This document shows, one piece after another, positions 55,000 through 62,091 of a DNA stretch of 64,000 bases. Both the position numbers and the translations under genes were made by a program. The notes under the pieces are model-generated. The model was not told the DNA's origin, searched no databases, and saw only the letters and a program-made list of their open reading frames with translations. Position 1 is the stretch's first letter. Each line of letters begins with the position of its first letter. The stretch is from Flavicella sediminum (GTDB taxonomy: Bacteria; Bacteroidota; Bacteroidia; Flavobacteriales; Flavobacteriaceae): contig NZ_VDET01000007.1 of the NCBI RefSeq assembly GCF_006381105.1, positions 186,001 to 250,000 on the forward strand, written 5' to 3'.

Positions 55000-56058
55000 A
55001 TGAAAAAACATAATTTTAGTGCAGGACCTTCAATACTTCCTCAAGAAGTTTTGAAAAAAGCAAGTGAAGCAATTGTTAATTTTAACGGATTAGATTTGTC
55101 TCTAATTGAGATTTCTCACCGTAGTAAAGATTTCATTGCAGTAATGGACAAAGCGCAGGCTTTGGTAAAAGAATTATTGGAATTACCAGAAGGTTATTCA
55201 GTATTGTTTTTACAAGGTGGAGCAAGTACACAATTTTTAATGACTCCTTACAACTTAATGAAAGTTGATGGAAAAGCTGCCTATGTTGATACTGGTGCTT
55301 GGAGTTCTAAAGCAATAAAAGAAGCCGTTAACTTCGGAGAAACAGTTGTTGTTGCCTCTTCTAAAGACAAAGGATATAATTATATTCCTAAAGGATACGA
55401 AATACCTTCAGACGCAGATTATATTCACTTTACATCAAACAACACCATTTTTGGAACTCAATTAAACGAATTCCCTGGTGATATGTTAAAAGTAGTAGAT
55501 ATGAGTTCTGATATCTTTTCAAGAAAAATAGACTACACACAATTTGATATCGTGTATGCTGGAGCTCAAAAAAATATGGGACCTGCAGGAACGACTTTAG
55601 TAATTGTAAAGGATGAAATTTTAGGAAAAACAGGAAGAACTATTCCTTCTATGTTAGACTATGCAGTACATGCAAAAGCTGGAAGTATGTACAATACACC
55701 TCCTGTATTCCCTATCTATGTTTCTATGTTGACTTTAGAATGGTTGAAAGAAAAAGGTGGCGTTGCGGTTATCGAAAAAGAAAACAAAGCAAAAGCAGAC
55801 TTGTTGTACAACGAAATTGATAACAATCCTTCATTTAACGGATTTGCAGCTAAAGAAGATCGTTCTAGCATGAATGTGACTTTTACACTTGCTGACGAAT
55901 CTTTAAAAGGAAAATTTGATGCTTTGTGTACAGAAGCAGGAATTAGCGCTATCAACGGTCACAGGTCTGTTGGAGGTTATAGAGCTAGTATTTACAATGC
56001 ATTACCAATTGAAAGCGTTCAAGTTTTGGTAAAAGCAATGCAAGATCTAAACAAATAA
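55000..56058 (+). CDS. serC: Phosphoserine aminotransferase
   Basis: A 352-residue class V aminotransferase. Start KKHNFSAGPSILP, LDLSLIEISHRSKDF, FLQGGASTQF and PLP-Lys in YAGAQKNMGPAG. It converts 3-phosphohydroxypyruvate and glutamate to phosphoserine in serine (and pyridoxine) synthesis. A terminator separates it from serA, which is in the same pathway. Confidence 0.97.
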   Translation: MKKHNFSAGPSILPQEVLKKASEAIVNFNGLDLSLIEISHRSKDFIAVMDKAQALVKELLELPEGYSVLFLQGGASTQFLMTPYNLMKVDGKAAYVDTGAWSSKAIKEAVNFGETVVVASSKDKGYNYIPKGYEIPSDADYIHFTSNNTIFGTQLNEFPGDMLKVVDMSSDIFSRKIDYTQFDIVYAGAQKNMGPAGTTLVIVKDEILGKTGRTIPSMLDYAVHAKAGSMYNTPPVFPIYVSMLTLEWLKEKGGVAVIEKENKAKADLLYNEIDNNPSFNGFAAKEDRSSMNVTFTLADESLKGKFDALCTEAGISAINGHRSVGGYRASIYNALPIESVQVLVKAMQDLNK

Positions 56059-56128: not shown

Positions 56129-57079
56129 ATGAAAGTATTAGCAAACGATGGATTGGCACAAAGCGGGGTAACTGCTTTAGAAGCTGCTGGTTTTGAAGTA
56201 ATTTTGACAACTGTTGCTCAAGAGCAATTAGAAAACTATATCAACGAAGAAAACATTGACGTAATTTTAGTACGTAGTGCAACTACAGTACGTGAAGAAT
56301 TAATCGATGCTTGTCCTTCTATCAAAATTATTGGTCGTGGTGGTGTTGGAATGGATAATATTGATGTACAATACGCTAGAGATAAAGGTGTGCACGTTAT
56401 CAATACACCTGCTGCTTCTTCTCATTCAGTTGCAGAATTAGTTTTTGCACATTTATCTGGCTTGGCTCGTTTCTTACAAGATTCAAACAGAAATATGCCT
56501 TTAGAAGGTGAAGCAAACTTTAAAGGTTTGAAAAAAGCATACGGTGCTGGTGTTGAATTAAAAGGTAGAACATTAGGTGTTTTAGGTTTTGGTCGTATCG
56601 GACAAGCAACCGCTGCTGTAGCTTTAAGATTAGGAATGAAAGTTGTTGCTTTTGACCCATTTATGGAATCTGCAACCATTACACTTGATTTTATTGATGG
56701 ACAAAAAGTTGACTTTAAAATTGATACTATTTCTAAAGAAGAAGTTTTAAAACAAGCTGACTTTTTAACCTTACACGTACCTGCTCAAGATGAGTATGTT
56801 ATTGGTGCTAAAGAAATTGAATCTATGAAAGACGGTGCTTTTATCGCAAATGCTGCTCGTGGTGGTGTTATTGATGAAGTTGCTTTGATTGCTGCTTTAG
56901 ATAGTGGTAAATTAGGTGGAGCTGCATTGGATGTTTTTGAAACAGAACCAAAACCAGCTGTACAAGTTTTAATGAACTCTAAAGTTTCATTAACGCCTCA
57001 TATTGGTGCTGCAACTAGTGAAGCACAAGATAGAATTGGTGGAGAATTAGCTTCTCAAATTATTGCGTTGTTGAAATAA
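56129..57079 (+). CDS. serA: D-3-phosphoglycerate dehydrogenase (short, no ACT domain)
   Basis: A 316-residue dehydrogenase. NAD loop GVLGFGRIGQATAAV (about 149-163), substrate loop VRSATTVREELID, catalytic His in LTPHIGAATSEAQ. It lacks the C-terminal ACT domain (E. coli SerA 410 residues), so allosteric inhibition by serine as in E. coli is not expected. It makes 3-phosphohydroxypyruvate for SerC, encoded upstream. Confidence 0.95.
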   Translation: MKVLANDGLAQSGVTALEAAGFEVILTTVAQEQLENYINEENIDVILVRSATTVREELIDACPSIKIIGRGGVGMDNIDVQYARDKGVHVINTPAASSHSVAELVFAHLSGLARFLQDSNRNMPLEGEANFKGLKKAYGAGVELKGRTLGVLGFGRIGQATAAVALRLGMKVVAFDPFMESATITLDFIDGQKVDFKIDTISKEEVLKQADFLTLHVPAQDEYVIGAKEIESMKDGAFIANAARGGVIDEVALIAALDSGKLGGAALDVFETEPKPAVQVLMNSKVSLTPHIGAATSEAQDRIGGELASQIIALLK

Positions 57080-57099
57080 CACAACTTCTTAGTATATAT

Positions 57100-57129
57100 A
57101 AAAAGCCATCCCTAAGGATGGCTTTTTTT
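57100..57129. terminator. Bidirectional terminator between serA and the TTL-like gene
   Basis: AAAAAGCCATCC pairs with GGATGGCTTTTT around loop CTAA. Confidence 0.95.
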
Positions 57130-58126
57130 ATGTAATAATTTTCCAACTTGAAATTTCTATAAAACCTTTGTTTTCTGCTGTTCTCAATCCCATCACAGAC
57201 AACATTTCTTCTAACATATCATTTTTTATACCTCCATGGTTTTCGTTTTTAGATTTCATGGAAGGTCCTTTATTTACTTCACAAATAATAGCTTGATTGT
57301 TTGTATCCACTAAAATATCAATTCCAAATACTTGAAAACATTTGGCTTGCTCCAAATTTTCCAACTTCCCAAATTCATGAACAGCAGAATCTAATAATTT
57401 ATTTATTTTTTCACACAAATCCCTAAAGAAAGTTTTGTATTCAACCTCTAGTTCATCTAACAATTCACTCATCAACTCAGGAAATTCTTCAGGAATAGCG
57501 TTTCTTGCATGTGTGATCATCCGGTCATACATTTGAATGTCTTTACCAGGTGGTTTTCCATAAATACAAACTCCTTCGTAATACAAATAGGCTGTTAATT
57601 TATTCTTATGCAAAGTCAATAATGCATAAACTCTAAAGTTAAATGAAGTTCCTTTGTGCCTCCTAAGATTTGTAATTAAAGGTTGTGCTATATCCGATTT
57701 CTCTTTTTCGTTCAATACTTTTTGTACAGAATCTACCAAAACCAATCCCAGTCTTCTATGCCTGTTATCTTTTAAAATAAAATGATTTCGAGTATCCGTT
57801 TTCAATCGTCTTATATCTTTCTTATCATCTAATATATAGGTCTCGGGCATAATACGCGAAGCTTGCTCTCTTCCGTATGAGTTTACCAAATTCATCCAAA
57901 CAGTACGCCTATTGATCATACAATCTGTCCCCGTTACCACACCAATGTATTTATTTTCTACTTTGCCCAAACCTTCTAACTCCTTTGAATCAGCCTTGTC
58001 GGTTAAAGGAAAATAAACATCCCATTCTTCTGTATCTAAAGAAATCACCATGTTGTTTTTTTCTAAAATATCGAGATATCTTTGGGAAGGTAACTTGTCG
58101 TATTTACAAATTTTAGTTTTACTCAT
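57128..58126 (-). CDS. Tubulin-tyrosine-ligase-like ATP-grasp amino-acid ligase
   Basis: A 332-residue protein carrying the TTL (tubulin-tyrosine ligase) form of the ATP-grasp fold: MPETYIL (93-99, equal to the PETFIL of TTLLs), FILKD (116-120), RRHKGTSFNFRVYALL (155-170, the TTL RVY motif), YLYYEG (180-185), FGIDILVD (267-274) and ICEVNKGPSM (281-290, like the LEVNASPS end). Eukaryotic TTL enzymes ligate Tyr, Glu or Gly to acidic protein tails. The gene lies 63 nt downstream of a gene for a protein with such a tail, behind a terminator and without an own -7 box, so it likely depends on readthrough. Its amino-acid donor is unknown. YheC/D-type ATP-grasp proteins are a weaker alternative. Confidence 0.85.
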   Translation of the reverse strand: MSKTKICKYDKLPSQRYLDILEKNNMVISLDTEEWDVYFPLTDKADSKELEGLGKVENKYIGVVTGTDCMINRRTVWMNLVNSYGREQASRIMPETYILDDKKDIRRLKTDTRNHFILKDNRHRRLGLVLVDSVQKVLNEKEKSDIAQPLITNLRRHKGTSFNFRVYALLTLHKNKLTAYLYYEGVCIYGKPPGKDIQMYDRMITHARNAIPEEFPELMSELLDELEVEYKTFFRDLCEKINKLLDSAVHEFGKLENLEQAKCFQVFGIDILVDTNNQAIICEVNKGPSMKSKNENHGGIKNDMLEEMLSVMGLRTAENKGFIEISSWKIIT

Positions 58127-58145
58127 TTAAAATAGGTTTAAAATA

Positions 58146-58171
58146 AAAAAACCGCAACATTTTGCGGTTTT
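58146..58171 (-). terminator. Terminator between acidic-tail protein and TTL-like ligase
   Basis: AAAACCGCAA pairs with TTGCGGTTTT around a 4-nt loop; on the minus strand it is followed by TTTTTT. It lies after the acidic-tail gene and before the ligase gene, so it would keep the ligase at a lower level. Confidence 0.85.
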
Positions 58172-58189
58172 CAAGTACTTTTATAACAC

Positions 58190-58507
58190 TTATAATTCTT
58201 CTACGTCTTCTTCAAAATCTTCATCTCCTTCAAGTTCCTCATCCTCAGCAGTTGTGTCTTGATATTCCTGATTAGCGACAATAATAGCATCCAATTCAGT
58301 TTGTGTAATCCATGCTCCTTCATGGAATACTAACAATTCATCACCATGTTTCAAATGTGCCTTTAAAGCGTTTCCTGAAACTGTAATTACTTTTCCTTTG
58401 TGAAGTAGTTTAACTTTTTCTCCACCCTCATCATTTCCTTTTAAGGCAATAACCGATAAAGTTACAGTCGCCAATGCCGCAGCTTTTAAGATGTTTTTTT
58501 TATTCAT
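58190..58507 (-). CDS. Small protein with highly acidic C-terminal tail; putative TTL-like substrate
   Basis: A 105-residue protein in three parts. Residues 5-23 form a hydrophobic segment (NILKAAALATVTLSVIAL) that could be a signal or anchor. Residues 31-60 (KVKLLHKGKVITVSGNALKAHLKHGD) resemble a small domain common in secreted Bacteroidota proteins (usually CHNGHTITVS...AHLAHGD), with the usual Cys missing here. Residues 88-105 end in EEDVEEL and contain 13 Asp/Glu of 18. That tail is like the acidic end of tubulin that TTL enzymes modify. Its gene precedes the TTL-like gene on the same strand. Substrate status is inference. Confidence 0.85.
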   Translation of the reverse strand: MNKKNILKAAALATVTLSVIALKGNDEGGEKVKLLHKGKVITVSGNALKAHLKHGDELLVFHEGAWITQTELDAIIVANQEYQDTTAEDEELEGDEDFEEDVEEL

Positions 58508-58567
58508 TTCAATAAAAAATTAAGTTTGAGTAAAATCGGGGGCCTTGGACTAAGCAATGGAACTTTT

Positions 58568-58575
58568 CAAATATA
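58568..58575 (-). promoter_or_regulatory. -7 box of the acidic-tail protein gene
   Basis: Minus strand TATATTTG; a TTG lies 25 nt further upstream, which is wider than usual, so the promoter may need an activator. The leader would be about 60 nt. Confidence 0.45.
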
Positions 58576-59009
58576 GTGTTAAAATTTAGATTTATTTTTA
58601 CAAATCAATAGTTTTTACTTTTAAATTCTTAATCGAATCACTGTTCTAGTGAAATAATTGTAATACTCACTTATTTTCGGTAAACATTTTAAAAACACAT
58701 TTAGTCATTTGTTTTAGTAATTTAAAGAGAATCTAAATAATACTGTTTACTCTTTTATTTAGTTAATTTTACACAAATCATCCATTAAAAACTATACAAT
58801 AAAACTTAGCTTATTGTTTATACAAGACAACAAATTCTACTTTTTAATCTTAAAAATTCGGGGTATATAAAAAATAATTACATATTCAACAACTCTCCTG
58901 TTTATATTTTTCAACGAACCGAATTCCATCCATATTCTTCTTTTTGTTCCATCGAATGAACAATAGTCAAATAAAGGATTATACGATCTTTTATTATTGT
59001 ACTATTTCG

Positions 59010-59017
59010 TATATTTG
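59010..59017 (+). promoter_or_regulatory. -7 box of the pflB gene
   Basis: TATATTTG, 38 nt before the ATG at 59056. The -33 element is unclear, in line with regulated (for example oxygen-dependent) expression. Confidence 0.45.
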
Positions 59018-59055
59018 AAACAGCAATAAACAAGATAATTACAAAACATAAACAC

Positions 59056-61281
59056 ATGAAAACAATAGCATTCAAAAATGGAGTTTGGAACAAAAGAATA
59101 AACGTTAGGGATTTTGTCGTCAAAAACATTACTCCTTATTATGGTAAAGAAGACTTTTTAGTAGGTCCTTCTGATAAAACCAAAAAACTATGGGAAATCT
59201 GCAAAGAAACCGTTAAAGAAGAACGATTAAATAATGGTGTACATTCTGTAGATACTGCTACTGTATCTGGAATTAATTCATTTGAAGCAGGTTATATTGA
59301 TCAAGAAAATGAAACTATTGTAGGTTTACAAACCGACCAGCTGCTAAAAAGAGCCATGAAACCTTTTGGAGGTTATAAAGTGGTTCAAAAAGCATTGGCT
59401 GAACACGGATTGGCTCCAAATAAAAATGTTAACGAACTATTTTCTAAATACGTAAAAACACACAACGATGGTGTATTCTCTGCCTACACTTCTGAAATAA
59501 AAAAATTCAGGTCTTTAGGATTTTTAACGGGCTTACCCGACAACTATGCTCGTGGAAGAGTTATAGGAGATTATCGTAGAATTGCCTTGTACGGAATTGA
59601 TTTTCTTATAGAAAACAAAAAAGCGGATTTAGAAAAAATTACAGGCCCAATGAGTGACGCCGTTATCCGCCTGCGTGAAGAAGTATCTGAACAAATAAAT
59701 GCCTTAAAGGACATGGTAAAAATGGGTGCGCATTACGACTTAGATTTAGCTCGTCCTGCACAAAATGCCCAAGAAGCGGTTCAATGGACGTATATGGCAT
59801 ATTTAGCTGCCGTAAAAGAACAAGATGGCGCTGCTATGTCTTTAGGAAATGTTTCCTCTTTCTTAGATATTTTCATCCAACAAGATTTAGAAACTGGAGC
59901 TATTACGGAAGTGGAAGCTCAAGAATATATTGATCAATTTGTTATGAAATTGAGAATGGTGAGACATTTAAGAATGGAGGCCTACGACCAAATTTTTGCA
60001 GGAGATCCTACTTGGGTTACCGAAGCGATTGGAGGTATGTTTTCAGACGGTCGTACAAAAGTCACAAAAACTTCTTTCCGTTTCTTACACACACTTTACA
60101 ACCTAGGCCCATCTCCTGAACCAAATATTACCATTCTTTGGTCTTATGGTCTGCCTCAAAATTTTAAAAACTACTGTGCCAAAGTTTCTATTGACACCTC
60201 TTCTATTCAATTTGAAAATGATGAATTGATGAGAACCACACGTAATTCTGACGATTATGGAATTGCTTGTTGTGTTTCTTTCCAAGAAATTGGAAAACAA
60301 ATTCAATTTTTCGGAGCCAGAACTAATTTGGCTAAAACTTTATTATTGGCCATAAATGGAGGGAAATGTGAAATTACAGGAACTCAAATGGTTGACGGTA
60401 TTGCTCCTTATACCGATGAATATTTAGATTTTGACAAAGTGAAAGCCAATTTCGAAATTGCGATGAAGGAAGTGGCTAGAGTGTACAATGATGCCATGAA
60501 TATCATTCACTATATGCACGACAAGTATTACTATGAAAAAGCGCAAATGGCTTTGATAGATACCAATCCTTTTATCAATATTGCCTACGGAATTGCAGGC
60601 TTATCTATTGTTGCCGATTCACTTTCTGCCATTAAATACGCCAAAGTAAAACCAATTAGAAATGAAGAAGGCTTAACCGTTTCTTTTGCTATTGAAGGAG
60701 CTTTTCCTAAATATGGAAATGACGATGATCGAGTGGATTTATTAGCGAGCAAAGCGGTTGCAGATTTTAATAATGAATTGAAAAAACTTCCGGTTTATAA
60801 AGAAGCTGCCGTTACCATGTCGGTATTAACCATTACTTCAAATGTTGTGTATGGTAAAAAAACAGGAGCCACTCCTGATGGAAGAGAAAAAGGGGTTCCC
60901 TTTGCTCCTGGTGCCAACCCTATGCACGGACGAGATTCTCATGGGGCCATAGCTTCTTTAAATTCTGTAGCAAAAATTAATTATGCAGATTCTCAAGATG
61001 GAATTTCAAATACCTTCTCAATTGTTCCTAAATCTTTAGGGGCTACACAAGAAGAAAGAATTGATAATTTGGCAAGTACGCTGGATGGTTATTTTGACAA
61101 AGGCGCCCAACATTTAAATGTAAATGTACTCGACAAAGAAACCTTGTTAGATGCTATGGAAAATCCTGAAGAATATCCACAGCTTACCATTCGTGTTTCT
61201 GGTTATGCAGTAAATTTTATTAGACTGACAAGAGAGCAGCAAATGGAAGTTATCACTAGATCTTTCCATGAAGCCATGTAA
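59056..61281 (+). CDS. pflB: Pyruvate formate-lyase
   Basis: A 741-residue glycyl-radical enzyme. The active-site pair Cys405-Cys406 is in [13 protein letters not shown] and the glycyl-radical Gly716 in [12 protein letters not shown] close to the C-terminus. It splits pyruvate with CoA into acetyl-CoA and formate without oxygen. The length and motifs match E. coli PflB (760). The activase gene follows 60 nt downstream. Together with norB this suggests life at low oxygen. Confidence 0.97.
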
Positions 61282-61295
61282 AACTTAACTCATAT

Positions 61296-61321
61296 GGGTA
61301 TCTAACTTTGTTTAGATACCC
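61296..61321 (+). terminator. Perfect hairpin between pflB and pflA
   Basis: GGGTATCTAA pairs with TTAGATACCC around a 6-nt loop; only a few T follow, so termination would be partial. It may lower pflA output relative to pflB or stabilise the pflB mRNA. Confidence 0.7.
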
Positions 61322-61341
61322 TTCACTTAAAGAATATCGCT

Positions 61342-62091
61342 ATCAAAACAGCTCAAAATACATTAAGAATTCACTCCATAGAATCTTTTGGAACCCATGA
61401 TGGTCCTGGAATTAGGATGGTCGTTTTTTTACAAGGTTGCAAATTAAAATGCTTGTATTGCCATAACCCTGACTCTATTGACACGCATGGAGGAACGGAA
61501 CATGACATTGAAGAATTGGTACAACGCGCCATAAACATGAAATCCTATTTTGGTAAAAAAGGAGGGGTTACTGTCTCAGGTGGAGAACCATTGTTGCAAT
61601 CTAAAGAATTGATTCATTTTTTTAAGCGATTAAAAGAAGAAGGAATTCACACAAATATTGATACGAATGGTAGAGTACTCAATCATTTTACAGAAGCGCT
61701 TTTGGACAACTATACCGATTTGGTGATGCTTGACATAAAGCATATGGAAGAAGCAGGTTACCGAGCCTTAACAGGGGCAAAAAGCAAGGAAACAACTTTC
61801 AAATTTGCAGCTTATAGAGAAGCCTCAGGGAAAAAAATGTGGTTGCGCTATGTGTTAATTCCTGGTCTAACAAATACTCCTGAATTATTGCATGCTTTAG
61901 GTGCCCATTTTAAAGAGTATCAAACTATTGAAAAAATAGAATTACAGCCTTACCACAAACTTGGCGTTCATAAATGGAAAGCTTTAGGATGGAAGTATGA
62001 ATTGGAAGATGCTCGAGAAAATACTCCTGAAGAATTAAAAGAAGCTGCTGCTATTTTGAACAAATATTTTAAAGAAGTTAAAATCAATTAA
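61342..62091 (+). CDS. pflA: Pyruvate formate-lyase activating enzyme (radical SAM)
   Basis: About 249 residues if begun with the ATC at 61342. The conserved start NTLRIHSIESFGTHDGPGIR is in frame upstream of the first ATG (61417), which would cut into it. Between the in-frame stop TAA at 61303-61305 and 61417 there is no ATG, GTG or TTG. The radical-SAM cluster motif CKLKCLYC (Cx3Cx2C) follows, then GGVTVSGGEPLLQ (SAM binding) and WLRYVLIPGLT. It makes the glycyl radical on PflB. Alternative starts are ATC at 61336 or ATT at 61369, or a sequence error. Confidence 0.88.
   Translation: MKTAQNTLRIHSIESFGTHDGPGIRMVVFLQGCKLKCLYCHNPDSIDTHGGTEHDIEELVQRAINMKSYFGKKGGVTVSGGEPLLQSKELIHFFKRLKEEGIHTNIDTNGRVLNHFTEALLDNYTDLVMLDIKHMEEAGYRALTGAKSKETTFKFAAYREASGKKMWLRYVLIPGLTNTPELLHALGAHFKEYQTIEKIELQPYHKLGVHKWKALGWKYELEDARENTPEELKEAAAILNKYFKEVKIN

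Follow-up and report, generated by a model that had tools for sequence, protein, structure and literature searches.

Does a bacterial member of the tubulin-tyrosine ligase (TTL) family, encoded next to a small protein with a strongly acidic C-terminus, modify the tail of its neighbour, or do the two genes just happen to lie side by side? The TTL family has known members in eukaryotes and giant viruses; a pair of this kind in Flavicella sediminum would represent a bacterial system for the modification of protein tails. Such a system was proposed in a first-pass annotation of the window (i.e., the whole 64,000-nucleotide stretch of DNA analysed here), in which the small protein was regarded as the substrate of the ligase. 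The two open reading frames had been placed correctly, both on the minus strand and separated by 63 bases, and the motifs quoted from the 332-residue product are indeed present in it (Table 1).

Table 1. Features of the ligase locus, with positions counted from the first nucleotide of the window
Feature	Position	Strand	Basis
TTL-family (TTLL-like) ATP-grasp ligase, 332 aa	57128..58126	-	PF03133, TTLL6 profile match, homologues in congener and 735-kb phage
Small protein (105 aa) with acidic tail; N-terminus signal-peptide-like; HKG...HGD segment without Cys	58190..58507	-	
Terminator-like hairpin, between 105-aa gene and ligase gene	58147..58172	-	Hairpin scan and folding compared with shuffles
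serA-like gene, 2-Hacid_dh, convergent with ligase gene	56129..57079	+	Pfam; same neighbour in congener G005
serC-like gene, Aminotran_5, precedes serA-like gene	55000-56058		Pfam
Pyruvate-formate-lyase-like gene, upstream of 105-aa gene, divergent	59056-61281		Pfam

The 2-Hacid_dh and Aminotran_5 genes are presumably serA and serC, and these names are used for them below. On the other side of the locus, window positions 59056-62091 hold the pyruvate-formate-lyase-like gene, which carries a glycine-radical domain, followed by an activase-like radical-SAM gene.

The assignment of the 332-residue protein to the TTL family, which had been read from motifs, is far beyond chance as judged from sequence. 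Membership in PF03133 was defined by a score above the gathering cut-off of the curated model; the protein scores 68.9 bits (cut-off 20.1; E 5.6e-19; residues 72-311), and its homologues in a congener and in a huge phage score 71.6 and 79.9 bits, respectively. Against PDB chains, the single sequence matches TTLL6 (2.7e-5) and TTLL7 (3.7e-5), while a profile built from the three homologues reaches 4.4e-17 for TTLL6, 1.3e-13 for TTLL7, and 2.9e-9 for the best TTL chain; the TTLL6 alignment spans profile positions 36-334 of 346. Residues K119, Q148, D270, E283, and N285, which we take to form the ATP-grasp core, are invariant in the three homologues and aligned to TTLL6/TTLL7 residues, as is R165 of the FNFR motif, presumably a substrate-side arginine. 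Candidate positions for the first, N-terminal lysine of the ATP-grasp set are R73/R74 or a lysine nearby. Two further features, which we assume to be general among tubulin ligases, are altered: the second substrate-side arginine (EGLAR/DGLVR) is replaced by I188 in the window protein, by valine in the congener, and by isoleucine in the phage, and the LTNxSxNK motif is missing in all three, the window protein having MITHARNAI at this place. The enzyme therefore probably has a substrate other than that of the tubulin ligases; both its target and its donor probably differ from theirs. Taken together, the 332-residue protein seems capable of ATP binding and ligation, with an altered substrate pocket. 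An AlphaFold2 model computed from a two-sequence alignment, with the phage homologue left out, gave a pLDDT of 35.7 and a pTM of 0.29.

The ligase is rare in the bacterial family. Protein searches that included the F. sediminum genome itself detected it in two genomes both among 60 relatives and among 397 members of the family, the second genome in each case being that of the same congener; within the genus it occurs in two of six genomes. The scan of genome contigs returned a single locus (CAJQMT010000021.1, a metagenome-assembled genome of an uncultured member of Flavobacteriaceae), which is taken to be that of the congener again. The TTL model matched only the genome of origin among 199 genomes of the family, and profiles built from close homologues did the same in 395 and in 178 genomes. 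When PF03133 was run over 395 genomes of the phylum, 47 were matched, the genome of origin included. From this search, 29 places in other genomes were taken, a reading frame lay over 28 of them, and 10 of these frames were scanned with Pfam; eight match Dala_Dala_lig_C, of the D-Ala-D-Ala ligase type, and one ATPgrasp_ST, of the sugar-transfer type, in each case far better than the TTL model, and these nine were therefore set aside. The remaining one (L070:1228-3279, minus strand) belongs to a long frame from a different genome of the phylum; its TTL match is marginal (20.6 bits; cut-off 20.1), and Pfam gives no second match at 0.001. No match was found in 72,556 plasmid records, and five scans of viral contigs (with two-row, three-row, and 64-residue alignments, with the phage protein, and with the C-terminal 64-residue stretch of the window protein) yielded no relative; since these viral scans use short peptide patterns, remote relatives can escape them.

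Outside the congener, a single homologue was found (28% identity over 273 residues); it is encoded in the 735-kb phage record LR756501.1 and also in LR756503.1, a twin record of equal length. This record, which is without annotation, is taken to be the 735-kb genome of the huge-phage study (PMC7162821), and the word ligase is absent from the available part of the main text of that paper. The phage gene (662108-663385, minus strand; L026:3731-5011) encodes a 426-residue TTL-family protein (PF03133, 2.5e-22) and follows a chaperonin gene (Cpn60_TCP1) at a distance of approx. 1 kb. Phage tubulin was considered as a target and ruled out, the 735-kb record having no PF00091 match.

In the congener, the ligase gene occupies the same chromosomal place, convergent with serA. 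The ligase proteins of the two species are 52-53% identical, as compared with 88.6% for serA, 86.9% for serC, and 72.4% for the LuxC-like gene that precedes them. Nonetheless, dN is 0.37 against a dS of 2.67 (near saturation), and selection therefore keeps the ligase protein. The other four congeners searched, one of them with a genome that is 87% complete, possess serA followed by different genes, and the ligase was not found in them. The gene, found at the same place in two congeners and not found in four, is thus either of long standing in the genus and frequently lost, or has been acquired; its divergence exceeds that of the adjacent genes.

The neighbouring 105-residue protein has the features attributed to it in the first-pass annotation: a hydrophobic N-terminus, an HKG...HGD segment, and an acidic tail with 13 Asp/Glu residues among the last 18 and 15 among the last 25. 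No other of the 90 ATG-initiated open reading frames of at least 60 residues in the window reaches 10 acidic residues in its last 18. Searches against Pfam and NCBIfam gave nothing above the cut-offs. Residues 9-22, which follow lysine residues, are strongly hydrophobic (mean hydropathy 2.2); as judged from similarity, hydropathy, and inspection by eye, a signal-peptide-like N-terminus precedes the HKG...HLxHGD segment, and the protein is predicted to be exported. No match at E 10 was found for it in five other genomes of the genus, the ligase-bearing one included, and none in 50,697 phage records; 72,556 plasmid records gave one weak match (E 0.1), to a thrombospondin type 3 repeat protein.

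Matches to the HKG...HGD segment occur in 22 further genomes out of 299 in the family (E 0.05 or better, the weakest possibly being due to chance). From 23 other places, 12 segments with HLxHGD were extracted, and all 12 begin with Cys-His (e.g., CHKG or CHIPPG), whereas the corresponding stretch of the 105-residue protein is LLHKG, with leucine for cysteine, and the whole protein is free of cysteine. Four relatives (L004, L028, L035, and L043), of which the whole or nearly the whole sequence was read, all have by eye a signal-like hydrophobic start, and the 90-residue protein encoded by L043 aligns from residue 3 of the 105-residue protein onward, including the signal-like part. The CHKG...HLxHGD segment thus recurs in proteins of the bacterial family, these four and others, and no Pfam or NCBIfam model covers it in the members scanned; a Cu-binding_MopE motif occurs in two of the three relatives scanned. 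The CHKG...HLxHGD segment may represent an unnamed, perhaps metal-binding domain. Since the cysteine is missing from the 105-residue protein, the role of the relatives need not apply to it. As far as the tail is concerned, it more likely functions outside the cytoplasm, for example, in cation binding; the tail is explained more simply if the protein is exported and its acidic end perhaps binds cations.

A terminator-like hairpin between the two genes, as had been described, is present, with 11 pairs followed by a T-rich stretch. The number of terminator-like sites in positions 57000-59100 is by itself no evidence, because one was found and 0.5 (sd 0.7) are expected from shuffles; the folding of the 71 bases around the hairpin has a z of -3.3, and 1 of 200 shuffles folded equally well. 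The hairpin ends approx. 20 bases ahead of the ligase start, and expression of the ligase would therefore depend on read-through or on a promoter within the 105-residue gene. A promoter scan found sites no more numerous than in shuffles.

According to the first-pass annotation, the ligase would add amino acids to or near the C-terminus of the 105-residue protein, and the hairpin would make the substrate much more abundant than the enzyme; the addition would then take place in the cytoplasm, prior to export. We regard this as unlikely, although several observations speak for it. The genes are adjacent on the same strand, with the hairpin in the short space between them; the only tail of its kind in the window adjoins the type of enzyme that acts on acidic tails; modification could take place before export; and only two other loci are known, so the partner could be missing there by accident. 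However, the combination of the ligase with an acidic-tail neighbour was found at one of three homologous loci, that of the window, in what is a small sample. In the congener, the ligase is adjoined by a NUDIX gene in the opposite direction, and the 34 open reading frames of the surrounding 12 kb have at most four acidic residues in the last 18; around the phage homologue, the maximum among 25 open reading frames is six. The expected co-occurrence thus failed at both other loci (n = 2). In addition, the 105-residue protein resembles exported proteins from 22 genomes in which no ligase was found (these genomes being taken as among those searched), which also argues against its being the substrate. 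Of the proposed tail-modification system, the TTL-family ATP-grasp protein with its residues kept is supported and the acidic protein as its substrate is not; as a tail-modification system, the pair is weakly supported. In a broader form of the idea, a TTLL-like subfamily of a few Bacteroidota and their huge phages would use a new acceptor pocket to extend the acidic end of a protein, either one destined for export and still in the cytoplasm or some different acidic one, by amino acids, as a bacterial counterpart of the tubulin code; this appears quite unlikely.

The ligase might instead serve in conflict between phages and hosts, modifying a host or phage protein and moving between Bacteroidota and huge phages. 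The restriction of the homologues found to one congener and a 735-kb phage is consistent with this, as are the sporadic presence in the genus and the low identity between the congeners (52% for the ligase vs. 87-89% for serC and serA). Moreover, genomes larger than 634 kb are predicted by the authors of the huge-phage study to replicate in Bacteroidetes (PMC7162821), and for jumbo phages the modification of host proteins has been predicted for ligases of another ATP-grasp family, the R2K peptide ligases (PMC7824862). However, the chromosomal place shared by the two congeners suggests descent with the chromosome, the LuxC-like neighbour is likewise just 72% identical, and the phage homologue is remote; the best match to a defence model is PDC-S26 (0.0047, 14.1 bits), and PADLOC and PHROGs gave nothing of weight. 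On balance, a role in conflict is improbable. Modification of FtsZ or of ribosomal protein S6, in the way that TTL and RimK modify tubulin and S6, is very unlikely: the genome does have one PF00091 match, an FtsZ-like protein with a long acidic region behind its core, but FtsZ is nearly universal (PF00091 in 13 of 14 control genomes) and the ligase was found in two of the 397 family genomes, and the last 20 residues of FtsZ contain just six acidic ones. This FtsZ-like protein (L090, G000:C12:485000-487800) is 691 residues long. It is highly improbable that the enzyme, as in graspetides, joins acidic side chains of the tail to further residues within the peptide itself. An ATP-grasp gene beside a protein with an acidic end, which we take to be precursor-like, might bring such a system to mind; however, the enzyme belongs to PF03133, RimK-type models stay below their cut-offs, and the last 18 residues of the 105-residue protein contain no Ser, Thr, or Lys.

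We therefore favour, as a rather probable reading, a divergent bacterial TTLL-like amino-acid ligase next to a separate, exported acidic protein, their adjacency probably being incidental. For the ligase, sequence comparison establishes family membership, the ATP-grasp residues, one substrate-side arginine, and selection to keep the protein. By the logic of the family, the enzyme would use ATP to convert a carboxylate, be it that of a small molecule or, in a protein, of a glutamate side chain or the C-terminus, into an acyl phosphate, to which an amino acid would then be joined. The 105-residue gene, with its HKG...HGD segment, would be a unit of its own. Thus, the enzyme is real and uncommon, and a partner role of the 105-residue protein is unsupported; the claim that the latter is a substrate would matter only if mass spectra confirmed it. 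A bacterial TTL member, in turn, offers a small system for finding a non-tubulin target.

Within the context of known systems, the 105-residue protein shares the HKG element, the subsequent A-x-x-HLxHGD, and, with L043, the hydrophobic start with CHKG...HGD proteins of the same bacterial family; it differs from them in having no cysteine before the first histidine and in its acidic tail. The ligase resembles RimK in that both are ATP-grasp amino-acid ligases, RimK acting on the end of a protein by adding glutamate to ribosomal protein S6 (PMC4431377); nonetheless, RimK models match it below their cut-offs (PF08443, 0.029, 14.4 vs. 21 bits; TIGR00768, 0.017, 14.5 vs. 143.4 bits). R2K ATP-grasp ligases have been predicted to modify proteins in bacteria and in jumbo phages (PMC4431377; PMC7824862), a secreted TTL-like domain is described in animals (PMC2824669), and TTL occurs in giant viruses (PMC11915834). 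Among the titles listed from the open-licence literature, which for one search were 12 of 101 papers, none describes a bacterial TTL with an acidic partner. With the eukaryotic PF03133 enzymes TTLL6, TTLL7, and TTL, the window ligase has in common the ATP-grasp core and the K, Q, FxxR, (I/L)D, and ExN positions, and TTLL6 can be aligned with it over most of the protein; it departs from the tubulin ligases in the EGLAR/DGLVR arginine, for which it and its homologues have Ile or Val, and in the lost LTN-x-S-x-N-K motif. The huge-phage protein lacks the same arginine and shares the motifs W-x-Y-x-P, GxD, PET, QVFGxD, and E[VC]NKGP[SD]M with the window ligase, but has an N-terminal extension of approx. 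60 residues and other neighbours. The only tubulin relative in this genome is FtsZ-like. A constrained TTL member in such a bacterium, with a relative in a 735-kb phage, suggests that the TTL family has targets besides tubulin.
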